Of a stretch of DNA of 64,000 nucleotides, positions 9,199-41,048 are shown piece after piece. The stretch covers positions 248,001-312,000 of the forward strand of contig NZ_JADKYP010000003.1 of NCBI RefSeq assembly GCF_015354405.1, read 5' to 3'. This DNA comes from Nocardia sp. BSTN01 (lineage in GTDB: Bacteria; Actinomycetota; Actinomycetes; Mycobacteriales; Mycobacteriaceae). A program made the translations under genes and the position numbers. The notes under the pieces were generated by a model. It did no database searches. It was not told where the DNA came from and saw only the letters and a list, made by a program, of their open reading frames with translations. Within the stretch, counting starts at the first letter, position 1. Each line of letters begins with the position of its first letter.

Positions 9199-10428
9199 CT
9201 AGCTCGCGGTGCGATCCGGTTCGCGAGCCACGAAGGTGATCGGCAGGCTCAGCGGCGAACGGGTGAGACCGGCGTGATATCGAATCTCCGCCCCGTCCGG
9301 GATGGCGATCCGATCCATGCGTTGCACGATCTCCTCCAGCGCCACCCGTAGGTTCAACCGGGCGAGGTTGGAGCCCGCACAGCGGTGCGGGCCCGCACCG
9401 AAGGCGAAGTGGCGGTTACGAGTTCGATTCGGATCGAATCGGTCCGGATCCGGGAATTCGCCGGCGTCGCGATTGGCCGAGGCCCAGTGGATGAGCATCT
9501 TGTCGCCGGATTCGATGGCGTGTCCGGCCAATTCGGTCTCGCGGACCGCGGTGCGGCCCACCGAGACGAACGGTGAATCCAGCCGCAGCAGTTCCTCGAC
9601 GGCCTTCGGCATGAGCTCGGGGCGCTCGCGCAGCAACTGCGGAATCTCGGGCTCGCGGCAGAACCGCTCCACCATCAGTCCGAGTGCGCCGGCGGTGGTT
9701 TCGAGTCCGCCGAGAATGAGAAGCTGTACCGCGCCGATGGTTTCGTCCTCGGTCAGTGGTACGCCGTCGATCTCGGCGGCCAGCACCGCGTCGACCACAT
9801 CCCCGCGCGGCGGTTGTTCACGCCGGGCGGCGAGGAAGCCTTTGACCCAGGCGTACAGGCCCTTCCAGCATTCGCGGGACTCGGGATGATTGGGGATCGA
9901 CGACCGCGAGGCCAGCCGCGACACGGTGTCGAGTTCGTCGGCGGGCGCGCCGATGGCGAGCTCGAAGAACGCCAGACTGGGCAGCGGCCGGGCGAAGGCG
10001 TCCATGAATTCACACTGTCCGTCGGCGAGGAAATCATCGAGCAGGCGGGTGACCAGATGGCGCGTCGGCTGTTCCCAGTCGGCGACCGCCGCGGGTGTGA
10101 AGTACGGGGTGATGAGGCTCTTGTAGGCGCGCTGTTCGGGCGGGTCCACCTCGACGGGCAGATTGCGCACCACGCCCTTGGTGCCGGTGACCGACAGGCC
10201 GTGCGCGGAGCTGAACACCGACCAGTTCTGCGCGACGCTCAGCACCTCCTCGTATCCGGAGGCAACCCAGAATCCGCCGTATCGGTCGCTGTGGGCCACC
10301 GGACACAGCTCGCGCATGCGGGCCATCGTCTCGGGCAGTGTGGCGGCGAGTTCGGGCGAGAGGTGGTCGAACCGGCGCAGACACCAATCATCGGGCAGGC
10401 GTACGCCGTTGGGCGTTGTCTTCTCCAT
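9199..10428 (-). CDS. Cytochrome P450
   Basis: A soluble bacterial P450 of 409 residues. The I-helix oxygen-binding segment reads LGGLETTAG, the K-helix ExxR is EELLR, and the heme-ligand loop near residue 345 is FGAGPHRCAGSNLARL with the axial Cys. ATG 10428 is chosen because AGGGGA stands 5 nt upstream; a GTG 24 nt earlier is possible. It would hydroxylate a hydrophobic substrate using ferredoxin electrons. The nearest candidate donor is the 3Fe-4S ferredoxin at 20380-20568. It is divergent from an aldehyde dehydrogenase, and the shared promoter carries two copies of the island operator-like motif, so I place it as the left edge of the catabolic regulon. Confidence 0.93.
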   Translation of the reverse strand: MEKTTPNGVRLPDDWCLRRFDHLSPELAATLPETMARMRELCPVAHSDRYGGFWVASGYEEVLSVAQNWSVFSSAHGLSVTGTKGVVRNLPVEVDPPEQRAYKSLITPYFTPAAVADWEQPTRHLVTRLLDDFLADGQCEFMDAFARPLPSLAFFELAIGAPADELDTVSRLASRSSIPNHPESRECWKGLYAWVKGFLAARREQPPRGDVVDAVLAAEIDGVPLTEDETIGAVQLLILGGLETTAGALGLMVERFCREPEIPQLLRERPELMPKAVEELLRLDSPFVSVGRTAVRETELAGHAIESGDKMLIHWASANRDAGEFPDPDRFDPNRTRNRHFAFGAGPHRCAGSNLARLNLRVALEEIVQRMDRIAIPDGAEIRYHAGLTRSPLSLPITFVAREPDRTAS

Positions 10429-10482
10429 GGTTTCCCCTGGCTGCTCGGGCACCGAGTGGGCGCCAACTCACAGTAACAGGGT

Positions 10483-10546
10483 AAGTGATCACTTTCTAGC
10501 AGACGATGGGAAGCGGTGACCTACCATGGGTTAGTAAGTTCTTACT
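10483..10546. promoter_or_regulatory. Two operator-like palindromes between P450 and ALDH genes
   Basis: AAGTGATCACTT (10483-10494) is a perfect 12-bp palindrome. AGTAAGTTCTTACT (10533-10546) is an inverted repeat of AGTAAG around TT. Both share the CTTACT/AGTAAG half seen at most other promoters of the island and lie 54-118 bp from the two divergent start codons. Confidence 0.55.
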
Positions 10547-10599
10547 CACAATCTGTCCGGCTCGGCCCGCTCGATGCGCCGTGGTCAGGAAGGATTTCC

Positions 10600-12099
10600 A
10601 TGTCGACAAGCACCGGAGCACTCGCCTCGCTGCCCGCATTCCTCGACGGCCGCACCAAGCGCCTGCTGATCGGCGGCCGGTGGGAAGCCGCGGCGGCGGG
10701 GCGTACCTTCACGAGCATCGACCCCTCCACCGGCGCGGTGATCGCCGAACTGGCCGCCGCCGACGCCGTCGACGCCGACCGCGCGGTCACCGCGGCCCGC
10801 GCGGCGCTGGTGGGCCCCTGGCAGCGGTTCTCCCCGCGCGATCGTCAGGCCCTGCTGTGGGCGTTCGCGGACAAGGTGCAAGAGCACTTCGACGAACTGC
10901 GTCTGCTCGAATCGCTCGATATGGGGTCGCCGCTGGGCCGCCGCCGCCCGGGTTCGCGGGCCTGGGAGGCCGAGGTACTGCGGTACTACGCGGGCTGGGC
11001 GACCAAGATTCACGGTGAGACACTGCCGAATTCGATTCCCGGCTCGGTGTTCAGCTATACGGTCAAGGAGCCGGTCGGGGTCGTCGCCGCGATCGTGCCG
11101 TGGAATCGCCCCGTCGCCAACGCGGTGTGGAAGATCGCTCCGGTGCTGGCCACCGGCTGCACCCTGGTCCTCAAACCCGCCGAGGAGGCGAGCCTGGCCG
11201 CGCTGCGGCTCGGAGAATTGTTGAGCGAGACCGGAATTCCCGACGGAGTGGTGAATATCGTGACCGGCGACGGCCAATCCGTCGGGGCCGCGCTGACCAC
11301 ACATCCGGGCGTGGACAAGATCGCCTTCACCGGCTCGACCGCGGTGGGGCGCGAGATCATCCGCTCCTCCGCCGACACCCTCAAGCGCGTCTCGGTGGAA
11401 CTGGGCGGCAAATCTCCCGATGTGATCTTCGCCGATGCCGATCTGGACAAGGCGGTTCCGGGCGCCGGCATGGGCGTGTTCTCGAATTCGGGCCAGACCT
11501 GTTGTGCCGGGACGCGCATTTTCGTCGAGCGGCCCGTCTACGACGAATTCGTCGAGCGTCTCTCGGATTTCGCGCGTTCGCTCCCCGTCGGCAACAGCCT
11601 GGACCCGCGGACCCGGATCGGCCCGCTGGTCTCCCAGCAGCAGCTGACCCGGGTATGCGAATACCTGGCAGCGGGCCCGGACGAGGGCGCGCGCACCACC
11701 GCCGGTGGGGCCCGCATCGACACCGGTGATCTCGCCACCGGCTATTTCGTGGAACCCACGGTCTTCGCGGATGTGTGCGACGAGATGCGGATCGCGCGCG
11801 AGGAGATTTTCGGTCCGGTCGCCTGTGTGCTGCCGTTCGACACTCTCGACGAGGTGGCCGAACGGGCCAACGATTCCGATTACGGTCTGGCGGGCGGAAT
11901 CTGGACCCGCGACATCAGCACCGCACACCGGCTGGCGGGGCGATTGCGGACTGGCACCGTGTGGGTCAACACGATGCTGCTGTTCGATCCGGCGGTGCCG
12001 TTCGGCGGATACAAGATGAGCGGATACGGACGCGAGATGGGCCCGCATTCGCTGGAGGAATACCTCGAGGTCAAATCCGTGTGGATCGACACGGATTGA
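10600..12099 (+). CDS. NAD(P)-dependent aldehyde dehydrogenase
   Basis: A 499-residue ALDH-superfamily enzyme oxidising an aldehyde to a carboxylic acid. It has VPWNRPVANAVWK and the Rossmann loop FTGSTAVGREI, the general-base Glu in ELGGKSPD (about residue 267), the catalytic Cys in SGQTCCAGTR (about 300) and the EEIFGPV block. The start ATG 10600 follows GGAAGG at good spacing. The closest visible relatives are betaine/phenylacetaldehyde-type ALDHs, but the substrate cannot be read. It is a single-gene unit divergent from the P450. Together they could take a hydroxylated side chain to an acid. Confidence 0.92.
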   Translation: MSTSTGALASLPAFLDGRTKRLLIGGRWEAAAAGRTFTSIDPSTGAVIAELAAADAVDADRAVTAARAALVGPWQRFSPRDRQALLWAFADKVQEHFDELRLLESLDMGSPLGRRRPGSRAWEAEVLRYYAGWATKIHGETLPNSIPGSVFSYTVKEPVGVVAAIVPWNRPVANAVWKIAPVLATGCTLVLKPAEEASLAALRLGELLSETGIPDGVVNIVTGDGQSVGAALTTHPGVDKIAFTGSTAVGREIIRSSADTLKRVSVELGGKSPDVIFADADLDKAVPGAGMGVFSNSGQTCCAGTRIFVERPVYDEFVERLSDFARSLPVGNSLDPRTRIGPLVSQQQLTRVCEYLAAGPDEGARTTAGGARIDTGDLATGYFVEPTVFADVCDEMRIAREEIFGPVACVLPFDTLDEVAERANDSDYGLAGGIWTRDISTAHRLAGRLRTGTVWVNTMLLFDPAVPFGGYKMSGYGREMGPHSLEEYLEVKSVWIDTD

Positions 12100-12189: not shown

Positions 12190-13830
12190 TCAACTGCGCA
12201 GCAGCCGTCCCGCCGCCGTATCGGCCACATCCACTCCGTCACGGCGCGTCTGAACGCCGTTGACCCACATGTGCTCGACTCCGGTGCTGCGCACGACGAG
12301 CCGATCCGCTCCCCCGGGCTGATCGTGCACCCGCTCGATCGGAGTCGTGCCGACCGTCGTGGGATCGAAGGCCACCAGGTCGGCGAAATACCCCTCGCGG
12401 ATCAGCCCGCGCTCGCGGATGCGGAAGGCGTGGGCGGGCTGGCCGGTCAGGCGCCACACCGCGTCTTCCAGTCCGACGGCCTTGCGCTCGCGCACCCAAT
12501 GCCCCAGCAGATGGGTGGAATAGCAGGCGTCGCAGAGCTGACTGGCGTGCGCGCCGGCGTCGGACAGGCCCAGGATCGTGCGCTTGTCGGCGAGCAGATC
12601 GCCGATCTCGTCGTCACCGTCGTTGTCCAGAACCACGCGGAAGCGCGTCGACATCCCGTCGGCGAGCGCGACGTCGAGCATCAGATCGAAGGCGGTGGTG
12701 CCGCGTTCGGCGGCCAAGCGGTCCAGGGGAATTCCCACCGCGTCCGGATCGGCGACGGTCTCCTCCACGGCGACCTTGGGCCACCGATGCGCCCATGCGG
12801 CCAGCGTCGCCGGGCGGGCCCGTTCCCGCCATGCCGCGTCGCGGTAGAGCTCGGCGCGCTCCTCCCGCGGCCGGGCGAGCACTTCCTTCCACTCGTCGAT
12901 CTCCCCCAGCGGGGTGGGATCGGCGAGGCTGACCTGCATGACGATGGGCCGGCAGGCGATCTGCGGGTACACCTCACCCGGCAGCGCACCGCCGCGCTCC
13001 ACCGTGCGCATCGCCGCGCCGGGTTTGTCGGCGCGCGCCACCAGCGCGGTCCAGGTGACCGGAATGCCGTAGCGCAAGGACAGATCCGAGAACTGATCGA
13101 CGAACATGCCGGGTCCGATCGACACCTGCAGGATGCCCTTGCCGACCGCACCCAGTTCCGCGGCCAGCGCGTCGACCTCGTCGACCTCGGCGAAGCGGCT
13201 GGGTACCGGGCGGCCGAACGCACCCTGATGGGCCGGTTGGCGCGAGGTGGACAGTCCGACCGCACCGGCCGTCACCGCCTCTCGCACCAGCGCGCGCATG
13301 GTGTCGACCTCCGCGGAGGTCGCGGCGCGTTCCTCACCGCCCAGGACGAACAGCCGCAGCGGCGTATGTCCCAGGAACGCACCGACATTGAGCCGCTTGC
13401 GGCGCCGCTCCAACGCGTCGAGATACTGCGGGAAGGTCTCGAAACACCAGTCGATGCCGGCGTTCAGCGCCTCCATCGACATGCCCTCGACGTTTTCCAG
13501 TGTGCGCACGATGATTTCGCGATGCGGCGGCCGGGTCGGCGCCACCCCGAAACCACAGTTGCCCATGATCACGGTGGTGACGCCGTGCCAGCAGGAAGGT
13601 GTGAGATCACCGTCCCAGAGGATCTGCGCGTCGTAGTGGGTGTGGATGTCGATGAAACCGGGTGTGAGCGTGAGCCCGTCGAGATCGACGACGCGTGTGT
13701 CCGGGCCCGGCGTCACCTCGCCGGGGGCGCCGACGGCGGTGATGCGGTCACCGGTGATCCCCACCTCGGCGGACCTTCCGGGTGCCCCGCTTCCGTCGAC
13801 CAGCCAGGCGCGGCGCAGCAACAGATCCAT
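12190..13830 (-). CDS. D-aminoacylase-like amidohydrolase (copy 1)
   Basis: A 546-residue metal-dependent amidohydrolase of the N-acyl-D-amino-acid deacylase group. The first metal box is GFIDIHTHYDAQ (HxH), the bridging Cys lies in MGNCGFGVAP, and the late Asp in LGLSDAGAH. Such enzymes hydrolyse amides or cyclic ureas/imides; the natural substrate here is unknown. ATG 13830 follows GGGAGG. It is downstream of the Rieske oxygenase gene by 44 nt in the same operon. A paralogue with the same architecture lies at 17667-19373, so the pathway may handle two related amide or lactam intermediates. Family is certain, chemistry is inferred. Confidence 0.85.
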   Translation of the reverse strand: MDLLLRRAWLVDGSGAPGRSAEVGITGDRITAVGAPGEVTPGPDTRVVDLDGLTLTPGFIDIHTHYDAQILWDGDLTPSCWHGVTTVIMGNCGFGVAPTRPPHREIIVRTLENVEGMSMEALNAGIDWCFETFPQYLDALERRRKRLNVGAFLGHTPLRLFVLGGEERAATSAEVDTMRALVREAVTAGAVGLSTSRQPAHQGAFGRPVPSRFAEVDEVDALAAELGAVGKGILQVSIGPGMFVDQFSDLSLRYGIPVTWTALVARADKPGAAMRTVERGGALPGEVYPQIACRPIVMQVSLADPTPLGEIDEWKEVLARPREERAELYRDAAWRERARPATLAAWAHRWPKVAVEETVADPDAVGIPLDRLAAERGTTAFDLMLDVALADGMSTRFRVVLDNDGDDEIGDLLADKRTILGLSDAGAHASQLCDACYSTHLLGHWVRERKAVGLEDAVWRLTGQPAHAFRIRERGLIREGYFADLVAFDPTTVGTTPIERVHDQPGGADRLVVRSTGVEHMWVNGVQTRRDGVDVADTAAGRLLRS

Positions 13831-13874: not shown

Positions 13875-15032
13875 TCACGCCCGGCGGACGGCCGCCAGCG
13901 CGTCGTCGAAACCGCGGTGCAGATGCTGCGGTGCGGGCTCGTTGCGGCCGAAGACGATGGTGCCGAGCACGCCGGCCCGGATGCCGGGTTCGGTCCGGGC
14001 CGCCACCCAGAAGTCCTCCCCGTCCACCACGGTCTCGCAGATCCAGGGGGCCATCTCCACCGCTTTGGCCCGTTCGGACTCGCTCAGGCCGGGGCGCAGA
14101 TATGTGCTGTGCACGACCTCGGAGGAGTTCGCGTCGACCGGGACGATCTGCCACAGCTCCACGTGGCGGCTGTCGAAGGTGAGGCTGGTATTCGGAAACA
14201 GCGCGTACTGCAGGCTGATATGGCTCATCACGTCGCCCCACTGCTCGTCGGGCACCTCGCGCAGTTCGTCGATCGTGCGCAGTGCCGAGCAGTTGCGCAG
14301 ATGCCGGCCGAACGGGTCGAAGGTCAGCACGCCGCCGTAGGCGTATTTCGCCAGGGTCCGGCGATGCAGGAAGCGGAAGTGGTAGTTCTCGCGGAAGGTG
14401 TCGAGCGTGACCTTCCAGTTGGCCCCCACGGGATGGACATGCGGCTCGCCGTACAACTCCCAGTCCGCGAACTCGAGCACCGCGAGTTCGTCCGCCAGGC
14501 CGGGGCCGAGATATTCATCGATATCCAGGGCGGGCCCGGGACGCAGCGATCCGACGATCAGCCCGTACCCCTCACTGACGGGCAGTTCGACAAGTCCCTT
14601 GCGCTCCAGGCACATTCCGGTGAAGGCGTCCGCCACCGGAACGGCGACGAGGCGACCGTCCAGATCGTAGGTCCACGAGTGGAACGGACAGGCGAATCGG
14701 CTGCGGGCGCCGCCACCGTCGGCCACCCGCACGCCACGATGGCGGCAGGCGTTGGCGAAGGCGCGAACGCGGCCTTCGTCGTTGCGGGTCAACAGAATCG
14801 GAACGCCGCACAGGTCGACGGTGCGGTAGGTGCCCGCATGCGGGAGCGCGCCGGACAGGCACAACACCAGCGGGTGGCTGCGAAACAGGACGTCGAATTC
14901 CTCGGCGTGCCGCTGCGTCGAATAGATATCGGTCGGCAATTCGAGGATGTCCGGCGCCAGATCGGTGGTGCCCGCGTCGATGTGGTCGAGCAATCGGCGC
15001 GCGAGGCTGTGTTCCAGCGCTTGCCTGTCCAT
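13875..15032 (-). CDS. Rieske non-heme iron oxygenase, large (alpha) subunit
   Basis: A 385-residue ring-hydroxylating oxygenase alpha subunit. The Rieske [2Fe-2S] ligands are in ACRHRG (Cys96, His98) and CPFHSW (Cys115, His118). The mononuclear iron His ligands lie in ENYHFRFLH (His218, His223). These enzymes hydroxylate or demethylate aromatic and alicyclic substrates. No beta subunit is adjacent, and no dedicated reductase is seen in the island. ATG 15032 is preferred over an in-frame upstream start at 15044, with GGTGGAG before it. It is the first gene of an operon with D-aminoacylase copy 1, and its promoter faces the TetR gene across a motif site. Confidence 0.92.
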   Translation of the reverse strand: MDRQALEHSLARRLLDHIDAGTTDLAPDILELPTDIYSTQRHAEEFDVLFRSHPLVLCLSGALPHAGTYRTVDLCGVPILLTRNDEGRVRAFANACRHRGVRVADGGGARSRFACPFHSWTYDLDGRLVAVPVADAFTGMCLERKGLVELPVSEGYGLIVGSLRPGPALDIDEYLGPGLADELAVLEFADWELYGEPHVHPVGANWKVTLDTFRENYHFRFLHRRTLAKYAYGGVLTFDPFGRHLRNCSALRTIDELREVPDEQWGDVMSHISLQYALFPNTSLTFDSRHVELWQIVPVDANSSEVVHSTYLRPGLSESERAKAVEMAPWICETVVDGEDFWVAARTEPGIRAGVLGTIVFGRNEPAPQHLHRGFDDALAAVRRA

Positions 15033-15083
15033 AACACACTCCACCCGAAACTCCGGACCCGAAGGACGGTCGACTGCGAGCTT

Positions 15084-15101
15084 AGTAGGTGATTACTTAC
15101 T
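15084..15101. promoter_or_regulatory. Operator-like inverted repeat between Rieske and tetR genes
   Basis: AGTAGGTGATTACTTACT is an inverted repeat (AGTAGGT / ACTTACT) with 4-nt spacing, 52 bp upstream of the Rieske start and 154 bp upstream of the TetR start. It matches the island-wide CTTACT motif and is the best placed site for autoregulation by the TetR protein. Confidence 0.6.
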
Positions 15102-15254
15102 CCGCAAGGAATTGCGAGAACCCAGTTCTACCTGGAGAGATCGACGTCATCACGCCGATGGCGTGGATGCCGTCGCGGGCGCACTAGGATAAAGTGTGTA
15201 CCCACTAACAAACGCCGATCGGCGCCGGCGCCGGCGCGGAAACGAGGAGGACTC

Positions 15255-15965
15255 GTGGCCAGAACCACGACGAACGGGAGTTCCACGATCCCGTCCACCC
15301 CTGCCACCGGCGCACCGCCGGTGCGGCGCCGGCTCACCGCCGAGGCCCGCAAGAGTTCGATTCTGGCCGCCGCGCGCCGCGCCTTCAGCGAGACCGGCGA
15401 TATGAACGGCACCACGGTCAAGATGATCGCCGAGCACAGCGGGATCAGCGAGGGAATCATCTACCGGCACTTCGAAAGTAAGGATCAGCTGTTCTTCGAG
15501 GCGGTGGTGGAACCGCTCAAGTCGGCCGTCGACGATCTGGTGGCCGCGACCGCCGTGGTCGACCGCGATCAGCCGCTGACCCCGCAGCGCCAGCTGGAGA
15601 CCCTCAAAGGTCTCTACCGCCAACTGATTTCGACACTCGACGAGGTGCTGCCGCTGCTGGGACTGGTGCTGTTCGGCGATCCACAGGTGGCCCGGCGGTT
15701 CTATCGCGAGAATTTCGCGGTCGCCATGGACCGGCTGGCCGAGGCGTGGCGCGAGGTCGAGGATCGTTACGGATTCCCGTTCGAATCGCCCGACATCTCC
15801 GCCCGCGCGGTGATGGGCATGGCGCTGATGCAGGCGTTGGAGACCCGGCACGGCACCGCCAAGAAGGCCGACCGCGACCGGGCCGTCACCTTGATCAGCG
15901 AGGGCACGGTCAAGGGATTCTTCCCGGTGATCGAGGGAGCCGAATCCGATGACCGCACAGCCTGA
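15255..15965 (+). CDS. TetR-family transcriptional regulator (likely island regulator)
   Basis: A 236-residue TetR protein. The N-terminal helix-turn-helix spans roughly residues 28-75 (RKSSILAAARRAF ... MIAEHSGISEGIIYRHFESK), followed by an all-helical ligand domain. GTG 15255 is chosen for the AGGAGG 6-7 nt upstream. It is the only regulator encoded in the 9-41 kb island, sits in its midst, and is preceded by one of the shared operator-like repeats. I infer that it is a ligand-responsive repressor of the whole island. The 3' end overlaps the SnoaL-like gene by 17 nt. Regulator family is certain; target set is inference. Confidence 0.92.
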   Translation: MARTTTNGSSTIPSTPATGAPPVRRRLTAEARKSSILAAARRAFSETGDMNGTTVKMIAEHSGISEGIIYRHFESKDQLFFEAVVEPLKSAVDDLVAATAVVDRDQPLTPQRQLETLKGLYRQLISTLDEVLPLLGLVLFGDPQVARRFYRENFAVAMDRLAEAWREVEDRYGFPFESPDISARAVMGMALMQALETRHGTAKKADRDRAVTLISEGTVKGFFPVIEGAESDDRTA

Positions 15966-16377
15966 TTCGCGGCACGACTCGCCCGCGCTCGGCGGCCTGG
16001 AGATCGTGACGGAGTTGTCGCGCCGCTTCGCCGCCGGTGACGGCGCGGGGGCGCTGGCGCTGTTCCACCCCGACATCCGGATCGAACAGCCGGCCTCCCT
16101 GCCGCACGGCGGCAGCTACCACGGACATGCGGGGGTGGCCGCCATGGGCGAATCGTTCGGACGGTACTGGGAGCGCAGTATCGACAATCCGCGCATCTTC
16201 GGCTCGAAGGATTCGGTCGTGCAACTGACCACCCAAACCTGGACGGCCCGGGTATCGGGGCGGCACGCCACGGTCGACGTGGTGGAGCTGTTCTCCTTCG
16301 CCGACGGGATGGTTCGCGAGATCCGGGTGTTCCAGCAGGACACCCACGCCCTGCTGAAAACCCTCGAACCTCGGTGA
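15949..16377 (+). CDS. SnoaL/NTF2-like protein
   Basis: A 142-residue single-domain protein of the cystatin-like NTF2/SnoaL fold: an N-terminal helical start (LEIVTELSRRFAAGDGAGAL), FHPDIRIEQPASLPHGG, a YHGHAGVAAMGESFGRYW segment, then beta strands ending VVELFSFADGMVREIRVF. Members include small-molecule cyclases, isomerases and ligand-binding proteins; nothing in the sequence fixes the activity. It overlaps the end of the TetR gene by 17 nt and so is translated with it. It may act on, or bind, a pathway intermediate. Confidence 0.75.
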   Translation: MTAQPDSRHDSPALGGLEIVTELSRRFAAGDGAGALALFHPDIRIEQPASLPHGGSYHGHAGVAAMGESFGRYWERSIDNPRIFGSKDSVVQLTTQTWTARVSGRHATVDVVELFSFADGMVREIRVFQQDTHALLKTLEPR

Positions 16378-16387
16378 GGACCTGACC

Positions 16388-17566: not shown

Positions 17567-17589
17567 GGGTGCCACCCCGATTCTCAACT

Positions 17590-17609
17590 AAGTAAGTGTT
17601 CTCTAACTT
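17590..17609. promoter_or_regulatory. Operator-like repeat upstream of thiolase
   Basis: AAGTAAG (17590-17596) and CTAACTT (17603-17609) form a near-perfect inverted repeat with a 6-nt spacer, 24 bp upstream of the thiolase ATG. The AGTAAG half is shared with the other island promoters. Confidence 0.5.
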
Positions 17610-19373: not shown

Positions 19374-19414
19374 GGTTTTCCATCCTTCCCGGCGCGGGCT
19401 GCCCGAGCATAAAT

Positions 19415-19430
19415 AAGCAGGTACTCACTC
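19415..19430. promoter_or_regulatory. Island operator-like site (AH copy 2 side)
   Basis: AAGCAGGTACTCACTC is a degenerate form of the 16-bp motif, 42 bp upstream of the D-aminoacylase copy 2 start and 45 bp from the stronger site at 19475. Confidence 0.5.
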
Positions 19431-19474
19431 AACATAACCCTCGAAACGCTCGCATATCACCGGGTACCGTGAGA

Positions 19475-30800: not shown

Positions 30801-30820
30801 GAGTAAGTAAGTAAACACTC
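30801..30820. promoter_or_regulatory. Island operator-like repeats upstream of amidohydrolase-2 copy 3
   Basis: Two overlapping AGTAAG cores (30802-30807 and 30806-30811) make GAGTAAGTAAGTAAAC and run on to ACTC. On the minus strand this reads GAGTGTTTACTTACTT, matching the motif. It lies 36 bp upstream of the ATG at 30856. Confidence 0.55.
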
Positions 30821-30855
30821 TCATGTTAATCTTCCTGGTACAGAAGGAGTTCGGG

Positions 30856-33655: not shown

Positions 33656-34003
33656 ATGCGAACCGGATCACGGGTGTGCGGTGCGGCGTTCGACGGCGAG
33701 TTGTTCGTCCGCGCCACGGTCGAATCGGTCGGGCCGTGTCCGGCGCGCGCGGACTACATCGAAATCTGTTTCTCGACCACCGAGGGCCGCTGGAAGTGGT
33801 GCTTCCCGGAACCGGAACCGTCGGAGTGCCCCGCGGAGCCCACCACCGACCTCGCGTTCACCCTGGACAACTACGGCGCCCAGGCACATCCGATCGTCGA
33901 CGGACGCATCCAGCCGGCGATCCTGAGCGCGGCCGCGCTACCGATGGTGCTGGCCGGGACCCCGGTGCACATCTCCCGGCGCCTCGTGGTGATGTGCCGC
34001 TGA
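33656..34003 (+). CDS. Hypothetical protein
   Basis: A 115-residue protein I do not recognise. It has no signal peptide and no membrane segment. Visible features are five Cys, an aromatic acidic stretch WKWCFPEPEPSECPAEPTTD, and a region DGRIQPAILSAAALPM. GAAGGAAG stands 9 nt before the ATG. It follows the ALDH by 51 nt and is convergent with the EthD-like gene, so it could be the last gene of that operon. Codon-position GC looks like that of its neighbours. A small NTF2-like or ligand-binding fold is possible but not shown. Confidence 0.55.
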   Translation: MRTGSRVCGAAFDGELFVRATVESVGPCPARADYIEICFSTTEGRWKWCFPEPEPSECPAEPTTDLAFTLDNYGAQAHPIVDGRIQPAILSAAALPMVLAGTPVHISRRLVVMCR

Positions 34004-34027: not shown

Positions 34028-34720
34028 TCAGCCGGACAGCACCACCTCCCGGGCGGCGAGAAACCACGAACGTTCGAACAAGCCGTCCGGCCCGGAGGGG
34101 CCGTTGTCGCGGAACCAGTCGATGCGCGTGCGCAGGCCGGTGACATCGTCGAAGTAGACCTCGTTCACCGCGTCGTAGGCGGTGCGAGTCGCCGCCACCG
34201 GATGATTCTGGACATAGGCACGACCACGAGCGGCGTCGGGTATCGCCACCGTCGCGGCGCCCGGTCGCCGCACCGTACCCGCATGCGCCGTCCACCGTGT
34301 CGCGAACTCTTCGGCTGTCAGATTCGCCGCCCGCACCGCGACCGCCATATGTTTGAGCCGATCGCCACCGTCGTCCCACCGATGTTCCAGCCATTCGCCG
34401 CCACGCAGAACATGTTCGCGGGCAATCACTTCCGCCGCTCTCTCCGGCAGCGTCACCACATCGCCCGCGTCGTCGCTTCCCGATCGCCAGCGATCGTGGC
34501 GACGCAGATGCCGGATATCGCGAAACCATTCGACCACCACACCGTCGTGCCGGGGTCCCGGCCCGGTGAGATCGGGTAGGACGGTACAGACCGTCACCCG
34601 CACCGGTCGCAGTCCGCTGGGCGCGTCCGCCGCCGCGGCACACAGCAGCGGCCACTGCCGGGCGAAAGTGTCGAAGGACAGCTGCGGTGACCGAGTGACG
34701 AAACGCAGACGTTTGATCAC
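34028..34720 (-). CDS. EthD-like (dimeric alpha-beta barrel) protein, two-repeat
   Basis: A 230-residue protein with an internal duplication of an EthD/ferredoxin-like half: RLRFVTRSPQLSFDTFARQW at the N-terminus and HMAVAVRAANLTAEEFATRW from about residue 118, each followed by a His/Arg-rich segment. EthD-type proteins accompany P450 or ring-degrading systems, but their role is unclear. The start GTG (34720) overlaps the stop of the large oxidoreductase gene as GTGA, which shows translational coupling and is strong support for this start rather than any upstream one. It is the last gene of the three-gene operon. Confidence 0.75.
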   Translation of the reverse strand: MIKRLRFVTRSPQLSFDTFARQWPLLCAAAADAPSGLRPVRVTVCTVLPDLTGPGPRHDGVVVEWFRDIRHLRRHDRWRSGSDDAGDVVTLPERAAEVIAREHVLRGGEWLEHRWDDGGDRLKHMAVAVRAANLTAEEFATRWTAHAGTVRRPGAATVAIPDAARGRAYVQNHPVAATRTAYDAVNEVYFDDVTGLRTRIDWFRDNGPSGPDGLFERSWFLAAREVVLSG

Positions 34721-37700
34721 GGCAGCGCCCCACTCGCCTCGGAAATCGTTGCGGCCGAGGGGTGTTCGAGCCGCCATGCCGCGATCCCGGCGCGCCACTG
34801 CTCGATGCTGCGTTCCTTGATCGGTCCGTACCCCGTGATCGCGGCCGCCGAGGCCGCCAGCTCGACCTGCCGGTCGTAGGGCAGCTCCGCGCCGGCTTCG
34901 GTGATCTCGGCGACGAGCCGCGCGTACTCCACGATCACCGCGCGTTCGGCGCGCCGGTCGCGGTCCCATCCGAACGGGTCGAACGGTGTGCCGCGCAGCC
35001 GTTTCATCCGCCGCAGCACGCGAAAGGCCAGCGCGTAGGTCCGGCCCGCCGGCAGCTTCCGCGCCATCCCCAGGCGCCGCAAGATCGGTGGATGCAGGTG
35101 ATAGGTCAGCGCGTAGGCGCCGTCGAGACCGAGTTCGGCGGCCACCGCGTCGTAGTCCGCGGCGAGATGCAGACGCGCGACCTCGTATTCGTCCTTGTAG
35201 GTCAGCAGGGCGAACCACGACTCGGCCACGGTGCGGGTCAGTTCCCACTCCCGCGCGGCCTCGTCGCGCGCGGCCGCGTATTCGACGAGTTCGAGATACC
35301 GGCGGGCGCGGCCCACGCTCTGATAGTCGATCACCTGGGCGGTCCGGCGAACCAGCCGGTCGTGGAGCTCGATCGGGAACGCCCTGTGCGCCACAAGCCT
35401 TTCCGCTGTCGCACCGGCCGCTGCCGTCGGCTCGTACCCGCGCGCGGTGGACGCCACGCGCTCGTCCCCCAGAGCCGCCGCGACGGCCGCGCGGTCGTGC
35501 ACGAGCCAGCGCCCCCATTCGAAGGCGAGCCGGTTGTCCGCCGCCGACCGGCCGCGTCCGGCCAGCGCCCGCGCCATATCGGCCGCCGACACCGGCACGC
35601 CGCCCAGCTGAAATGCCGCACCCAGCAACACCACATTCGCGGGCAGGTGATCGGCGAAGACCCGCTCCGCGACGCGTCGCGCATCGATCACCGACGTCCG
35701 CCGCGCGCCGATCCGATCGGCGATCGCGGCTTCCAACGAAGCCACATCGGGGGCCGCGGTGTGGCTCTGCAACATCGCCGCAGTCGGCGTGACGTTCCGA
35801 TCGACCACCGCGATCGCTTGCCCCGCACGGGCTTTCGCCAAATGGTCGGCGGAGGCGGCCTGCAGGATATCCCCGGACAGGTACAGATCCGCGCCGCCGC
35901 CGCTCACCGCCGCCGCGGTCAATCCTGCGCGATCGGCCGCCAGGTGCAGATGTGACACCACGGCCCCCGCCTTCTGCGAGAGCCCGGTCTGATCCATACC
36001 GCCGACCACCCAGCCCGCCGCCTCGGCGGCCCGCACGAGGATCCGGTTGGCGGTGACGATCCCCGTGCCGCCGATCCCGGTGAAGTAGATGCTGTAGCGC
36101 TCGCCGACCGCGGGTTGCGCCGGCTCCGGCAACGATCCCGCCGGAAGGCGCGGACGCTCACGCCGCGCCCGATTCCGCCGGCGGCCACCGGTTGTCGGTT
36201 CGATGGTGACGAACGACGGGCAGTCACCGTCCAGGCAGGTGTAGTCGCGATTGCACGAGGAATCGTGGATACGCCGCTTCGTGCCGAATTCGGTCTCCAT
36301 CGGCAGCACCGACAGACAGTTGCTCTTGGTTCCGCAGTCGCCGCAGCCTTCACAGACGGCCTCGTTGATGACGACCCGCCGCGGCGGCTCCGGCAGCAGT
36401 CCGCGTTTACGCAGCCGCCGCGCCTCGGCCGCACACCGCTGGTCGTAGATGATCACCGTCACGCCCGGCACCGTCCGCAGCCGCTGCTGCACCTGCGCCA
36501 GCCGATCGCGGCCCAGCACCTCGACACCCCGCGCCCACCGCGCGCGCCGGCCGTAGCGGCCGGGATCCTCGGCGCACACCACGATCTCGCGCACCCCCTC
36601 GGCCTGCAGTTCCCGGGTGAGGGCCGGCACGTCTCGCAGTCCGGTCACCTCCTGGCCGCCGGTCATGGCGACCGCCGCGTTGTAGAGGATCTTGAAGGTG
36701 ATGTCGGTTCCGGCGGCCACACTCGCGCGGATGGCGAGCGTGCCGGAATGGGTCAGCGTGCCGTCACCGAGATTCTGAATCAGGTGGGGCGCCTCGACGA
36801 ACGGGGACAATCCGATCCACGGCACCCCTTCGGCACCCATCGGCGTCGGCGGCAACGTCGTCAGATCGCGGTTGCGGGCCTCGAAATACATGATGCCGTG
36901 ACAGCCGACACCGCCGCCGACCAGCGCATCCTCCGGTGCAACCGTGGACCGATTGTGCGGGCAGCCACTGCAATACGCGGGCGCGCGGGCCGGCGTCACC
37001 AGCAGGGGCAGCTCCAGCCGCGGCGGTGTCGCCGGGCGCAGCGCCGGAAGAACACGGTCGAGTATCTCGCCCACGGACTTCGGATCGAGTACCCCGGAAC
37101 CGGGCACCAAGGGCTCTCTTTCACGATCCCGCTTGCCCAGCACCGGAATTCGACGCTCCGCCTCGTGCAGCACCGCGCGCAGCTGCGTCTCGACGAATGG
37201 CCGCTTCTCCTCCACGACCAGTAACCGCCGCACCGAATCCGCGAACTCGACCGCGGTCTCCTCGACCAGCGGGTAGGTCATACCGAGCCGCAGGATGCGC
37301 ACACCCGCCGCCGCGAGATCGGTGATCCGGACGCCGCGCTCCGACAACGCCTGCACCACATCGAAATACGTCGCGCCCGCGCAGACGATGCCGAGCTCGG
37401 CGGTGTCCGGACCGACCGTCCGGTCGAGGCCGTTGTGCCGGGCATAGGCGCGGGCCGCTCGCAACCGATGCTCGTTGATCAGCTCTTCCTGGCTGGGCAC
37501 CGCATGCGGGCCGATGGTCGCCTGCGGTCTGTGCGTCCAGATCCGCCCTCCGATGGTCACCTGCGGTTCGGCGGGGCGGTGTCGTCCGAGATCCGGATCC
37601 ACCGTGCCTATTCCGTCGGCGACGGCGGTGACGATCTTCAGGCCGACCCAGCATCCGGCATACCGCGACATCCGGAAGGCGTGGATCCCCAGGTCGAGAA

Positions 37701-38190
37701 CGTCCTGCTGATCCCCCGGAAACAGCACCGGAATCCCGGCGTCGGCGAAGGTGTACTGGCTGTCACAGGCCAGCGTGGACGATTTCGCGGCCGGATCGTC
37801 ACCACAGAAGGCCACCGCCCCGCCGCCCGGACCGGCCCCCATCGCATTGGCGTGTTTGAGCACATCGCCCGAGCGATCCAGTCCTGGCCCCTTGCCGTAC
37901 CAGGCACCCACCACGCCGTCGACACCGTCGTAGGCGAGGGCGGCGCCCATCTGGCTGCCCCAGACGGTGGCCGCCGCGAGCTCCTCGTTGAGTCCGGGCC
38001 GGTGCACGATGCGATGCCGCTGCGGTTCGTGCCGTTCCAGTTCCAGATCGAAACCACCCAGCGGCGATCCCGGATATCCGGAGACCATGGTGGCGGTGGT
38101 CGTTCCGTCGCGAAGGTCGAGTTCGTGGCGCAGCTCGAGCAGACGCACCAGCGTCTGCACTCCCGACAGCACCGGCGTCGGAGCCGTCAC
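34717..38190 (-). CDS. Indolepyruvate/2-oxoacid:ferredoxin oxidoreductase fusion
   Basis: A 1157-residue enzyme joining the alpha/beta (IorA-like) and gamma (IorB-like) parts. The N-terminal domain has GYPGSPLGGFD and NEELAAATVWG. CSGCPH lies at 407-412, and the TPP/Mg motif begins GDGTLTH near 475 and ends at LYNAAVA. Iron-sulfur ligands sit in CEGCGDCGTKSNC (about 613-625) and SSCNRDYTC (about 646-652). The gamma domain starts near 700 with TGIGGTGIV. It would oxidatively decarboxylate a 2-oxoacid to acyl-CoA with ferredoxin as acceptor. GTG 38190 overlaps the upstream amidohydrolase stop (GTGA). The substrate in this aerobic pathway is unknown. Confidence 0.9.
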   Translation of the reverse strand: MTAPTPVLSGVQTLVRLLELRHELDLRDGTTTATMVSGYPGSPLGGFDLELERHEPQRHRIVHRPGLNEELAAATVWGSQMGAALAYDGVDGVVGAWYGKGPGLDRSGDVLKHANAMGAGPGGGAVAFCGDDPAAKSSTLACDSQYTFADAGIPVLFPGDQQDVLDLGIHAFRMSRYAGCWVGLKIVTAVADGIGTVDPDLGRHRPAEPQVTIGGRIWTHRPQATIGPHAVPSQEELINEHRLRAARAYARHNGLDRTVGPDTAELGIVCAGATYFDVVQALSERGVRITDLAAAGVRILRLGMTYPLVEETAVEFADSVRRLLVVEEKRPFVETQLRAVLHEAERRIPVLGKRDREREPLVPGSGVLDPKSVGEILDRVLPALRPATPPRLELPLLVTPARAPAYCSGCPHNRSTVAPEDALVGGGVGCHGIMYFEARNRDLTTLPPTPMGAEGVPWIGLSPFVEAPHLIQNLGDGTLTHSGTLAIRASVAAGTDITFKILYNAAVAMTGGQEVTGLRDVPALTRELQAEGVREIVVCAEDPGRYGRRARWARGVEVLGRDRLAQVQQRLRTVPGVTVIIYDQRCAAEARRLRKRGLLPEPPRRVVINEAVCEGCGDCGTKSNCLSVLPMETEFGTKRRIHDSSCNRDYTCLDGDCPSFVTIEPTTGGRRRNRARRERPRLPAGSLPEPAQPAVGERYSIYFTGIGGTGIVTANRILVRAAEAAGWVVGGMDQTGLSQKAGAVVSHLHLAADRAGLTAAAVSGGGADLYLSGDILQAASADHLAKARAGQAIAVVDRNVTPTAAMLQSHTAAPDVASLEAAIADRIGARRTSVIDARRVAERVFADHLPANVVLLGAAFQLGGVPVSAADMARALAGRGRSAADNRLAFEWGRWLVHDRAAVAAALGDERVASTARGYEPTAAAGATAERLVAHRAFPIELHDRLVRRTAQVIDYQSVGRARRYLELVEYAAARDEAAREWELTRTVAESWFALLTYKDEYEVARLHLAADYDAVAAELGLDGAYALTYHLHPPILRRLGMARKLPAGRTYALAFRVLRRMKRLRGTPFDPFGWDRDRRAERAVIVEYARLVAEITEAGAELPYDRQVELAASAAAITGYGPIKERSIEQWRAGIAAWRLEHPSAATISEASGALP

Positions 38191-39443
38191 GGATAGACCT
38201 CGGGATCGACGTAGGCGACGACGCCGCCTTTGATCACCGTCCGCAGCTTCGAATGATCCTGCAGCACAGTGATATCCGCCGTCGGGTCGCCGTCGACGAC
38301 GATCAGGTCGGCCAGCAGTCCGGCCCGGACCTCACCGGTGTCCAGGCGCGCCGCCGGGCCCATGTTCCGGGTGGCGGTGTGGATGGCCTCGATCGGTGAC
38401 ATGTCGATCAACTCGACATAGCGCTGCAATTCCGCCGCATAGGTGCCGTGCCGGGTCCACTGATGCCCGAAGTCGCCACCGGACAGGATCGGAATGCCGG
38501 CGGCCTTCAGCTTGTGCAATCCGTCTATCTGAGCGCGCAATTCGTCGCGATAGCCGGACGCCTCGACCTGTTCCCCACTGATCCCCCACTCCTGCGCGCG
38601 GCCCGAGACCACGGCGTACAGATAGTGCAGACCCGGACATACCCAGACATCGTCGCGCCGCGCCTCCAGCGCACTCAATGCCTCGTCGTCGAGGAAGCAG
38701 GCGTGATGGATGATGCGGACGCCGCTGCGCGCGGCCATCGCCACGCTGGCCGCACCGCGTGCGTGCACCGTGACGAAGGCGCCGTAGCTGTCCGCGACTT
38801 CGACTGCCGCCGAAAGCATCTCGTCGTTCATGTAGACGTCCTCGGACGGGTGGGCGGGCACCACACCGTCGCCGGAGATGAACAGTTTGAGCGAACGCAC
38901 GCCGCTGTCGCACTGCCGCGCGACGACCTCGCGGATATCGCGGACACCGTCCACGACCTCCATCAGGCCGCCCTCCTCGCCGCCGAGACCGCCGCGCTCG
39001 GCGATCATCGCCCCGCAGGGGATCAGGCGCGGCCCCGCGATCAGCCCTCGCTCCACCGCGTCGTGGATGAGCAGATCGTCCTGCGGCTGCGTGGCTCCCG
39101 CGCCGATCAGCAGGGTGTAGCCGCTGTGCAGATAGGTCTTCGCCACGGCGGCGACGTCGAGGATGTGCCGCCCCGGCGGCGTCGCGGCGACGGCCGCGTG
39201 GTCGAAGACGAAATCCAGCGGCCAACTGATATGCGTGTGCGCGTCACCGAGGCCGGGCAGCACCGTGGCGCCGCGCAGATCCACCACCCGCACAGCACCC
39301 GGATCGACGTCGATATCCGCACCGATACTGACCTCGGCGATCCGATCCCTCTCGACGAGTACCGATCCCGCGCGCGGGCGTTCGGCGAGATCACCCCCGC
39401 AGGTCAGGATCCGCCCATTGGTCAGCAGCATTCGCTCTGTCAT
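38187..39443 (-). CDS. Imidazolonepropionase/prolidase-like amidohydrolase
   Basis: A 418-residue amidohydrolase of a third subfamily. It has the GLGDAHTHISWP metal box (HxH), LKLFISGDG with a Lys, VTVHARG and IIHHACFLDD with His ligands, and GGDFGHQW with the catalytic Asp. Relatives hydrolyse cyclic amides, imidazolones and Xaa-Pro or carbamate bonds. ATG 39443 is preceded by GGAGG at 6-nt spacing and by an operator-like motif. It begins the operon that continues into the 2-oxoacid oxidoreductase and EthD-like gene, linked by GTGA overlaps, so its product may be converted into the oxoacid. Confidence 0.87.
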   Translation of the reverse strand: MTERMLLTNGRILTCGGDLAERPRAGSVLVERDRIAEVSIGADIDVDPGAVRVVDLRGATVLPGLGDAHTHISWPLDFVFDHAAVAATPPGRHILDVAAVAKTYLHSGYTLLIGAGATQPQDDLLIHDAVERGLIAGPRLIPCGAMIAERGGLGGEEGGLMEVVDGVRDIREVVARQCDSGVRSLKLFISGDGVVPAHPSEDVYMNDEMLSAAVEVADSYGAFVTVHARGAASVAMAARSGVRIIHHACFLDDEALSALEARRDDVWVCPGLHYLYAVVSGRAQEWGISGEQVEASGYRDELRAQIDGLHKLKAAGIPILSGGDFGHQWTRHGTYAAELQRYVELIDMSPIEAIHTATRNMGPAARLDTGEVRAGLLADLIVVDGDPTADITVLQDHSKLRTVIKGGVVAYVDPEVYP

Positions 39444-39460
39444 CAGCGACCTCCAGTACT

Positions 39461-39476
39461 GAGCGAGTACTTACTT
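39461..39476. promoter_or_regulatory. Island operator-like site upstream of amidohydrolase operon
   Basis: GAGCGAGTACTTACTT is one of the clearest copies of the motif (RAGCGAGTACTTACTY), 18 bp upstream of the ATG at 39443. Confidence 0.6.
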
Positions 39477-39499
39477 TATCACCGGCGTCACAGCGCGAG

Positions 39500-39515
39500 A
39501 GTCGAATTCTTACTT
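39500..39515. promoter_or_regulatory. Second operator-like site in the same promoter region
   Basis: AGTCGAATTCTTACTT shares CTTACTT and the CGAAT of the 21913 site. It lies between the amidohydrolase operon (-) and the disulfide oxidoreductase (+, start 39663). It sits 148 bp before the latter and 57 bp before the former. Confidence 0.45.
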
Positions 39516-39662
39516 TCGAGAATCATCCATCCGCCCGCGGGCTCGCGCAACGGAACGCCACGATCCGCACCTGTCGATCCCCCACCGGCGGCGTCCCAGC
39601 TGTCACCATGGTCTGCGGGACCCCGCCGTCCCCACCGAGTCGAATCAGAGGAGCGTGATCGC

Positions 39663-41048
39663 ATGCCCGCCGAAACCCCGGCGACCGAATCCGTGGATGC
39701 CGTCGTCATCGGCATGGGGCCCGGCGGCGAGGCCGTGGCGACCGAATTGGCGCGTGCCGGGCTCGCGGTGGTCGGCGTCGAAGGCCGGCTGCTGGGCGGC
39801 GAATGCCCCTACTACGCCTGCGTGCCGACCAAGATGATGGTGCGCGCCGCCGAGACCCTCGCCGAGGCACGACGTGTGGGCACCCTCGCGGGAAGCGTCC
39901 GGGCGCAGGCGGATTGGACGCCGGTGGCGAAGCGGATCCGCGACGAGGCGACCGACAACTGGGACGACAAGGTCGCGGTCGAACGGTTCGAATCCGCGGG
40001 CGGCACCTTCGTGCGGGGCTGGGGGCGCATCACCGGTCCGGGCCAGGTCCGCGTCGATACCGCCGACGGACCGCGCGAATTCCGCGCCCTGCGCGCGATC
40101 GTGCTGAATCCCGGCACCGCCCCGTCCGTACCGCCGATCGAGGGCTTGGCCGACACCCCGTACTGGACCAACCGCGAGGCGGTGACCACCACCGAGGCGC
40201 CCGAATCCCTGATCGTCCTCGGCGGCGGACCGGTCGGCGCGGAATTCGCGCAGATCTTCTCCCGGTTCGGAGCCGAGGTGACGATGGTCGTACGCAGCCG
40301 CCTGCTGCCGCGCGCCGAGCCCGAGGCCGCCGACATGCTGGCGAAAATCTTTGCCGAAGAGGGGATTTCGGTCCGCACCGGCGTCGAGGCCACCCGCATC
40401 GACCACGACGGCAGCTATTTCACCGTCCGGCTGAGCAACGGCGATCCGATCCGCGCCCAGCGCCTGCTGGTCGCCGCCGGCCGCAACACCGACCTGTCCG
40501 CACTGGGCGTCGGCGCCATCGGCCTGGACGAGCAGGCGCACGGCATCCGGGTCGACGACCGGCTACGCGCCGCCGAGGGAGTCTGGGCGATCGGTGACGT
40601 CACCGGGCACGGCGCCTTCACCCACATGTCGATGTATCAGGCGTGCATCGCCGCCGCGGATATCCTCGGCTCCCCCGGCGAACCCGCGCGGTATCACGCG
40701 GTTCCCAATGTCACCTTCACCGAACCGGAGGTGGGCGCGGTCGGGATGACGGAGTCGCAGGCCCGCGAGGCCGGACTGAGCGTCTGGACCGGCCGGGCCG
40801 AGGTTCCGGATTCGACCCGAGGCTGGATTCACGGGCCCGGCAACGCCGGCTTCGTCAAGCTGGTCGCCGACGCCGATCGCGGCATTCTGGTCGGCGCCAC
40901 CTCGGTCGGCCCGGTCGGCGGCGAGGTGCTGAGCGCCTTGGCCGTCGCGGTGCACGCCCGGGTCCCGGTCACCACATTGCGGGAGATGATCTACGCCTAT
41001 CCCACCTTCCACCGCGCGATCGAGGCCGCCCTCGCCGATCTCGGCTAG
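39663..41048 (+). CDS. FAD-dependent pyridine nucleotide-disulfide oxidoreductase
   Basis: A 461-residue class I flavoprotein of the dihydrolipoamide dehydrogenase/mercuric reductase group. The FAD loop is VVIGMGPGGEAVA, the redox-active pair is Cys48/Cys53 in GGECPYYACVPTK, and the NAD loop is VLGGGPVGAEFA. The C-terminal HPTxxE His of lipoamide dehydrogenase is replaced in YAYPTFHRAIE, so a disulfide substrate other than lipoamide is likely. ATG 39663 follows AGAGGAG. It stands at the right edge of the island, and its 3' neighbour is an MmcQ-type gene 57 bp downstream. Confidence 0.88.
   Translation: MPAETPATESVDAVVIGMGPGGEAVATELARAGLAVVGVEGRLLGGECPYYACVPTKMMVRAAETLAEARRVGTLAGSVRAQADWTPVAKRIRDEATDNWDDKVAVERFESAGGTFVRGWGRITGPGQVRVDTADGPREFRALRAIVLNPGTAPSVPPIEGLADTPYWTNREAVTTTEAPESLIVLGGGPVGAEFAQIFSRFGAEVTMVVRSRLLPRAEPEAADMLAKIFAEEGISVRTGVEATRIDHDGSYFTVRLSNGDPIRAQRLLVAAGRNTDLSALGVGAIGLDEQAHGIRVDDRLRAAEGVWAIGDVTGHGAFTHMSMYQACIAAADILGSPGEPARYHAVPNVTFTEPEVGAVGMTESQAREAGLSVWTGRAEVPDSTRGWIHGPGNAGFVKLVADADRGILVGATSVGPVGGEVLSALAVAVHARVPVTTLREMIYAYPTFHRAIEAALADLG

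Follow-up and report, generated by a model that had tools for sequence, protein, structure and literature searches.

A recurrent and apparently co-regulated catabolic gene island of Nocardia sp. BSTN01 encoding probable dinuclear oxygenases

A run of about two dozen genes in the genome of Nocardia sp. BSTN01 raises the question of whether so mixed a set of enzymes makes up one catabolic unit and, if so, which kind of compound it would serve to break down. The genes lie in a 64,000-nucleotide stretch of contig NZ_JADKYP010000003.1 (positions 248,001 to 312,000 of the forward strand; hereafter the window, with positions counted from its first letter), which is part of a 7.79-Mb genome assembly. 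The island of about 30 kb includes a cytochrome P450, a Rieske oxygenase, six proteins with amidohydrolase Pfam domains (AH1, AH2a, AH2b, AH2c, AH3a and AH3b), a fused CaiB-type protein (CoAT) and a 2-oxoacid:ferredoxin oxidoreductase of the IOR family. An original prediction, made from the letters of the window, had described it as a catabolic island that suggested the degradation of a cyclic compound, either nitrogenous or lactone-containing, through hydrolysis of an amide or a ring. In this work the island is found to be one discrete, apparently co-regulated catabolic unit, and with moderate confidence we read it as a single regulon that would serve the aerobic breakdown, by way of CoA thioesters, of a polycyclic isoprenoid-type compound (di-/triterpenoid or steroid-like). 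Gene models were produced with a purpose-written gene caller, families were assigned with Pfam and NCBIfam, and solved relatives were found by a PDB search; the gene inventory of the original prediction was reproduced in this way, and its alcohol dehydrogenase (ADH), short-chain dehydrogenase (SDR), aldehyde dehydrogenase (ALDH), thiolase and Ltp2-like labels hold as family assignments. The closest named relatives found through CoAT are Nocardia cerradoensis, N. aobensis and N. nova (91-95% identity), and the host belongs to the N. nova/cerradoensis group.

The borders of the island are defined by the sister genome G357, in which the whole island (9169-39543) is missing as an all-or-none block. 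In the BLASTN comparison window positions 9168 and 39544 are separated in G357 by about 40 bp, i.e. the site is empty, while three long pieces of the G357 flanks align to the window with 90.9-92.1% nucleotide identity; the island limits are placed at about 9169-39543 because the flanks join there without it. The best match of CoAT in G357 has 32% identity and is thus no orthologue, and the IOR protein has a 45% relative there. The end at 41048 that had been proposed is not retained, since this alignment puts the true end at about 39543; the last gene, coding for a flavoprotein (39663-41048), is present in G357, has an orthologue in one of the 20 orthologous regions described below and lies outside the island. 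A mobile element was considered and rejected, with no direct or inverted repeats of at least 9 bp found within about 110 bp at each border and with a native G+C content (68.1% in the island and 67.6% in the flanks). A tRNA-Gly gene at 43340 lies away from the island border. G357 also lacks two pieces of the left flank (about 5080-6423 and 7218-8031), on which the gene models 5076-6449 and 7261-8076 (enoyl-CoA hydratase) lie, so that gain in the source strain and loss in G357 both fit.

A scan with CoAT as the query gave 35 loci, of which 33 reach at least 60% identity; the loci were found in Nocardia, Actinomadura, Amycolatopsis, Thermomonospora, Actinocorallia, Frankia, Parafrankia, Pseudofrankia and Trujillonella and in metagenome-assembled genomes of Acidimicrobiales or other actinobacteria, and all 30 genomes behind these loci have an IOR match. 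Twenty regions, defined as contigs bearing both CoAT and IOR in stretches of at least 38 kb (which leaves 10 of the 30 genomes outside the set), were compared gene by gene, and all region counts given below refer to them. Families were clustered by single linkage at 52% identity, so the counts for P450 and SDR proteins may include paralogues and orthologues may be split. Out of the 23 island families tallied, the complete set is present in three regions and the minimum is nine (Parafrankia soli); AH2c and ALDH1 are the least constant, with nine regions each. Each of seven flanking genes occurs in none or one of the regions. The gene order differs among genera, and the recurrence of the gene set exceeds chance. 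The doubt raised in the original prediction, namely that the genes might have their closest relatives in different fixed contexts, is not borne out for most of them, as the families travel together across several orders of Actinomycetota. Within Nocardia the distribution is patchy, with CoAT in 10 of 149 genomes, these being a sample of a larger group. Among the papers listed by the literature searches, which covered few subscription journals, none describes this gene cluster.

A 20-bp palindrome with the consensus GTAAGTAAGTACTTACTTAC and the core AGTAAGTACTTACT stands before most transcription units of the island. With up to three mismatches the core has nine matches in the window, at seven non-overlapping places and all within island promoter regions, compared to 0.03 in shuffled sequences. 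Putative operators with their position weight matrix (PWM) scores, which are circular for the window because the matrix was trained on it, are located in the promoters of P450/ALDH1 (two, 10481-10549; 22.2 and 25.7), Rieske oxygenase/TetR (two, 15081-15209; 23.5 and 18.1), thiolase (17588-17607; 21.3), AH3b/SDR1 (two, 19409-19492; 20.0 and 24.1), AH2a (21907-21926; 20.3), ADH/AH2b (two, 23148-23291; 18.4 and 18.8), the luciferase-like (LLM) and OB-fold genes (28141-28160; 19.6), AH2c (30803-30822; 25.2) and AH1-IOR-EthD (39459-39478; 21.3). The scan of other regions is an independent test: in 15 of the 28 regions, at a score of at least 14, there are 126 sites, 122 of which are wholly non-coding, compared to 1.8 in all for mononucleotide shuffles. 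They mostly precede the same gene families and often the TetR gene itself.

The TetR gene of the island (15321-15965, plus strand; PF00440; 14 regions), the proposed island repressor, has two of these sites, at 15081 and 15190, in its own promoter, and its product is the likely regulator binding the palindrome. Joint control of the units, on which the original prediction depended, is consistent with the common predicted operator, which stands before most units and again in other genera. Taken together, the empty site in G357, the 23 families recurring jointly elsewhere and the operator-like palindrome shared by the promoters agree with the earlier claim of one coherent catabolic unit. Genome-wide, with a degenerate core derived from the island sites and at most one mismatch, seven of the ten distinct places are in the island; two of the three others have PWM scores of 12.7 and 12.4, compared to at least 18 for the 13 best island sites, and the third is on contig C186. 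Further regulon members in the genome were sought without success, there being no excess at up to two mismatches (98 matches compared to 112 for the backwards-read control). An operator also occurs in Actinomadura craniellae 29 bp before a gene assigned by eye as similar to substrate-binding proteins of ABC transporters, which hints at uptake of the substrate.

The three proteins that had been called ACMSD-like amidohydrolases are AH2a (20681-21889, minus strand; 11 regions), AH2b (23354-24529, plus strand; 12 regions) and AH2c (30823-32058, plus strand; nine regions), in all of which PF04909 scores above its cutoff. The ACMSD- and LigW-type enzymes have a mononuclear metal site with the H-x-H or E-x-H pattern. 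AH2a, AH2b, AH2c and their listed orthologues possess D-x-H in its place, and the identity as mononuclear decarboxylases of this type was rejected. The best PDB match of AH2a is DitZ (8uyr, E-value 1.6e-66) followed by PtmU3, that of AH2b is 4dzi, a structure with no assigned function, followed by PtmU3 (7.7e-29), and AH2c matches PtmU3 (2.8e-33) and DitZ (4.6e-29). DitZ belongs to the resin-acid dit genes. The metal ligands of AH2a align with those of DitZ and PtmU3, with ECDYPHSDSTWP identical in DitZ, and AH2c was aligned with PtmU3. PtmU3 is described as a diterpenoid hydroxylase with a diiron site, which belongs to the amidohydrolase superfamily and takes CoA-linked substrates, and the metal ligands of its relative AibH2 are listed as Asp25, His27, His211, Glu265, Asp337 and His340 (PMC7782822); the name amidohydrolase-related dinuclear oxygenases has been given to the family (PMC10811679).

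The six AibH2-type ligand columns (D, H, H, E, D, H) are invariant across AH2a, AH2b and AH2c. The D-x-H, H and D-x-x-H patterns occur together in 14 of 14 AH2a orthologues (one short member omitted), in 13 of 16 AH2b orthologues, of which the other three fail the H pattern, and in 12 of 12 AH2c orthologues. A seventh position is variable, being Asp in AH2a, Glu in AH2b, Thr in AH2c (12 of 12), Asp in AibH2 and Glu in PtmU3. With the DitZ, PtmU3 and 4dzi resemblance and the six ligands kept, the ACMSD label is given up, and AH2a, AH2b and AH2c are probable dinuclear oxygenases, sharing the fold (PF04909) and the D-x-H, H, E and D-x-x-H ligands with PtmU3, AibH2 and SfbO. They differ from these enzymes in being three paralogues in one catabolic island and, for AH2c, in the Thr at the seventh position. 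Next to AH2a and directly downstream of SDR1 there is a gene for a 62-aa ferredoxin (20380-20568, plus strand; 14 regions), absent from the earlier gene list and recognised by eye from the open reading frame and the CQGHARCWEIC motif; it is a possible electron-transfer partner of AH2a but may serve the P450. No small Rieske ferredoxin was detected among the island Pfam hits.

Two of the remaining amidohydrolase-type proteins lead away from amide hydrolysis as well. AH3a (12190-13830, minus strand; 19 regions) and AH3b (17667-19373, minus strand; 11 regions), both with PF07969 and the former related in sequence to D-aminoacylase in the PDB, had been taken for two D-aminoacylases. Two metal histidines which are invariant in the three annotated D-aminoacylases used as a reference, and which we take to be H220 and H250 of the Alcaligenes enzyme, are absent in all 35 AH3 sequences compared. 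They are replaced by Ser/Ala and Leu in 22 of 22 AH3a members, including that of the window, and by Val and Ile/Met in 13 of 13 AH3b members longer than 450 aa, with one shorter member omitted. This loss weighs against amide hydrolysis, not against lactone hydrolysis. The same two histidines are missing from a protein of Novosphingobium ES2-1 annotated as D-aminoacylase and from a Sphingobium amidohydrolase. AH1 (38187-39443, minus strand; PF01979; 19 regions) has prolidase and Xaa-Pro dipeptidase as its PDB relatives, and out of its five motif patterns three are present in all 22 members, the fourth in 21 and the fifth in just three. The earlier count of six amidohydrolases stands as far as the Pfam domains are concerned, with a hydrolase-like ligand set apparently kept, in the window sequences, by AH1 alone.

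With regard to CoA chemistry, it had been noted that neither a CoA ligase (FadD) nor an acyl-CoA dehydrogenase (FadE) is encoded, which is true inside the island; an orthologue of a FadE operon is present on contig C35 of the same genome. In other genera a set of four or five genes (families x29, x27, x42, x26 and x25) is located within the cluster, x26 being found in nine regions. Its orthologues on C35 code for two acyl-CoA dehydrogenase pairs and an enoyl-CoA hydratase, with 78% identity for x26, and in each pair one member has a weaker or partial domain match. Paired (heteromeric) acyl-CoA dehydrogenases are a hallmark of steroid CoA oxidation. Family x26 occurs in 10 of 10 CoAT-bearing Nocardia genomes and in 45 of 139 without CoAT (Fisher p 2.7e-5, kinship ignored). 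Close to the operon on C35 there is also a gene for a CoA ligase. At about 32-58 kb this contig carries the acyl-CoA dehydrogenase pairs, the enoyl-CoA hydratase, a GntR regulator, the CoA ligase and a CoA-transferase/hydrolase, followed by an operon with an FMO-like flavoprotein, a second Rieske oxygenase, a thiamine pyrophosphate (TPP) enzyme, an ALDH, a TauD dioxygenase, an SMP-30-like protein and SDRs. In Thermomonospora echinospora the CoA-transferase/hydrolase and an operon of this type adjoin the island homologue, without the acyl-CoA dehydrogenase genes. N. aurantia and Nocardia sp. alder85J have other copies of the FadE operon, and in these two the operon lies downstream of an ADH promoter that bears the operator.

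The enzymes proposed to act on carbon-carbon bonds are the thiolase (16388-17566, minus strand; PF00108/PF02803; 11 regions), in which the canonical residues (NRHCASG, INEAF and CAGG) are kept in 15 of 15 members of at least 340 aa, and an aldolase-like protein of thiolase fold (28661-29842, plus strand; 20 regions) that matches Ltp2 in the PDB (6ok1, 2.1e-52) and adjoins its DUF35/OB-fold zinc-ribbon partner (28206-28664, plus strand; PF12172/PF01796; 15 regions). The Ltp2-like members keep the first catalytic Tyr in a YDGF motif (27 of 27), and the N-terminal thiolase Cys motif was not found in them by a motif search. The Rieske oxygenase (13875-15032, minus strand; PF00355 and PF00848; 15 regions) is of alpha type, and all 17 enzymes compared have the CxH..CxxH motif and the iron-site-like motif ENYHFxxLH.

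Five remote family resemblances suggest the substrate class, and a polycyclic isoprenoid is favoured because AH2a resembles DitZ and AH2b and AH2c match PtmU3, because the DUF35/Ltp2-like pair resembles the steroid aldolase pair, because the acyl-CoA dehydrogenases are paired as in steroid CoA oxidation, because the P450 (9199-10428, minus strand; PF00067; 18 regions) has CYP125MRCA, the cineole P450 (P450cin) and the camphor P450 (P450cam) as its nearest PDB entries, and because the family of the IOR protein (34717-38190, minus strand; PRK13030, 1197 bits compared to a cutoff of 816; present in 20 regions as a selection criterion) includes EdcC, which is described as acting in the breakdown of estrogen ring A (PMC12507874). 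Under this reading the TetR protein would repress the units until a pathway intermediate binds to it. The P450 with a ferredoxin, the Rieske oxygenase and up to three AH2 oxygenases would then introduce oxygen into C-H bonds, and the resulting alcohols would be converted by ADH, SDRs and ALDHs to ketones and acids. A ligase, the CaiB-type protein or the IOR protein may attach CoA; the last of these would do so by converting a 2-oxoacid to acyl-CoA and CO2. The heteromeric acyl-CoA dehydrogenases, encoded at the second locus in this strain, would desaturate the bulky CoA ester, with the DUF35/Ltp2-like pair and the thiolase cutting C-C bonds. A more specific version, which we put forward tentatively and hold to be possible rather than probable, is a new pathway in which a CoA-bound polycycle is serially hydroxylated by AH2, P450 and Rieske enzymes, the AH3 proteins open a ring (C-C or lactone), the IOR protein produces CoA thioesters, and one TetR/operator system extends across several actinobacterial orders.

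Several observations weigh against the isoprenoid reading. Each of the clues to it is a remote family resemblance, and the island Pfam hits include neither a ring-cleavage dioxygenase nor an enzyme specific to terpenes nor a hydratase of the MaoC type. CoA transfer by CoAT (24690-26978, minus strand; two PF02515 stretches; 20 regions as a selection criterion) is unproven, because at the two catalytic Asp positions, which we take to correspond to Asp169 of formyl-CoA transferase in type III CoA-transferases, it has Glu (half 1, GTGGWSETSL) and Ile (half 2, QQVITSL). Among 28 CoAT members the half-2 pattern is found in nine, three of them with Asp, and the half-1 Glu is present in all 15 listed, with three unmatched; the x24 relatives of CoAT keep the catalytic Asp (12 of 12). 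The Ltp2-like protein of the window keeps only the first of the two catalytic tyrosines of TcLtp2, the second position being neither the Tyr344 of TcLtp2 nor the Cys304 of CtSal and aligning as Arg. Family x26 appears to serve other pathways too, because 45 island-free Nocardia genomes carry it. With the PWM no operator was detected near the acyl-CoA dehydrogenase locus of four Nocardia genomes (160 kb in all), and the inclusion of this second locus in the same regulon is unsupported for them. Finally, no single AH2 paralogue seems indispensable, because between 8 and 11 of the 20 regions lack each of them in the stretch read.

How do other readings of the island compare? One of them is a module for steroids in the strict sense, acting on the side chain or the rings of a sterol, a bile acid or an estrogen, rather than a system for a plant terpenoid. 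The Ltp2/DUF35 pair, the paired acyl-CoA dehydrogenases, the IOR family of EdcC and the closeness of the P450 to CYP125 in the PDB would all fit it; we nevertheless consider it unlikely, as the annotated island genes include no 4,5-dioxygenase, KstD, KshA/KshB or MaoC-type gene, the motif of the Ltp2-like protein is YDGF and not YDHF, and EdcC homologues are lacking in estrogen-degrading Actinomycetota according to a review (PMC12507874). An estrogen route in particular, considered for the place of EdcC in the IOR family, was rejected on the missing 4,5-dioxygenase and on that same description of EdcC. The breakdown of an alicyclic or aromatic polyketide-like or polyphenolic compound seems more doubtful still. 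SnoaL, EthD, LLM oxidoreductase and Rieske oxygenase families, all present here, occur in pathways for such compounds; against this, no ring-cleavage dioxygenase is among the island genes, and the DitZ/PtmU3-type oxygenases and the DUF35/Ltp2-like pair point to bulky alicyclic CoA esters.

The nitrogenous or lactone-containing cyclic compound of the original prediction, opened by amidohydrolases, is now judged quite improbable. It rested on six amidohydrolase names, and the proteins do carry the corresponding Pfam domains, with AH1 related to prolidases and other amide hydrolases; however, most of the metal sites are not hydrolase-like, AH2a-c having the six-ligand dinuclear oxygenase set and AH3a and AH3b lacking the two metal histidines (which leaves lactone hydrolysis untouched), and there is no deaminase, ammonia-related or lactam-specific family among the island Pfam hits. 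A biosynthetic cluster, as that of PtmU3 in diterpenoid antibiotics, would account for the similarity to that enzyme; it is highly improbable given that no terpene cyclase, polyketide synthase or peptide synthetase is among the island genes and that the thiolase, the two ALDHs, the IOR protein and the linked FadE operon fit breakdown.

Among the known systems, the dit cluster for abietane resin acids (Pseudomonas abietaniphila, Paraburkholderia xenovorans) resembles the island in the DitZ-like AH2a, and the island holds members of the broad families of its P450, ring-hydroxylating oxygenase and DitF; DitZ was compared by sequence through its PDB entry and the other Dit proteins by description. 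The description includes a P450, a ring-hydroxylating oxygenase and the sterol-carrier-like ditF, and no mention of IOR, AH1 or AH3a/b counterparts is made in the part of that source consulted (PMC13063091). The island differs from the dit cluster in having no ring-cleavage dioxygenase ditC among its Pfam hits and in belonging to a different phylum. As in the ChsH2(DUF35)-Ltp2 and Shy-Sal systems, the DUF35 and Ltp2-like genes adjoin each other and the Tyr of YDxF is kept, whereas YDGF stands in place of YDHF or YDCY, Arg is at the second TcLtp2 tyrosine and there is no MaoC hydratase. With the edc estrogen cluster the island shares an IOR-family oxidoreductase, EdcC itself having been compared by description, but no 4,5-dioxygenase or extradiol dioxygenase family was hit in the island by Pfam, and EdcC is described as unique to Pseudomonadota among estrogen degraders (PMC12507874).

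A distant betaproteobacterial analogue was observed on a Massilia putida plasmid (NZ_CP019037.1, 105000-150000), where a double CaiB-type protein (32% identity), an AH2a-like protein (about 40%) and an IOR protein (41%) are encoded at about 117-151 kb together with two P450s, acyl-CoA dehydrogenases and a ferredoxin. It differs from the island in the low identity and in its VOC proteins, electron-transfer flavoprotein and acyl-CoA ligase. A looser cluster on a Mycobacterium branderi plasmid (NZ_AP022607.1, 32854-63987) includes two amidohydrolase-family proteins, two OB-fold proteins, thiolases, a large CoA transferase and a Rieske protein.

The other genes of the island code mainly for redox enzymes, represented by ALDH1 (10600-12099, plus strand; PF00171; nine regions), ALDH2 (32129-33604, plus strand; PF00171; 17 regions), SDR1 (19545-20354, plus strand; PF00106; 11 regions), SDR2 (29900-30751, plus strand; PF13561; 19 regions), a zinc ADH (22010-23089, minus strand; PF08240/PF00107; 15 regions) and the LLM oxidoreductase (27133-28086, minus strand; PF00296; 20 regions). 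There are also a SnoaL-like protein (15949-16377, plus strand; PF12680; 13 regions) and an EthD-like protein (34028-34720, minus strand; weak PF07110; 14 regions), the start of which was taken from an overlap reading. A small conserved protein without a Pfam match (33674-34003, plus strand) carries a conserved CPARA motif and has aligned homologues beside ALDH2 in Actinomadura and Nocardia; it was counted in one region, its looser homologues (x74 and x82) having fallen into separate clusters.

The island is thus a defined unit with sharp borders, an island-free sister strain, a candidate repressor, a 20-bp putative operator that also marks the gene set in distant genera, and a dehydrogenase operon linked to it. 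Should AH2a-c prove to be oxygenases, several paralogues of a young enzyme family would act in one catabolic route, and the "amidohydrolase" label in such clusters could hide oxygenases and enzymes whose active sites are altered. Should a plant terpenoid or a steroid be the substrate, the island would point to a carbon source common to many actinobacteria for which no gene cluster is described in the literature searched.

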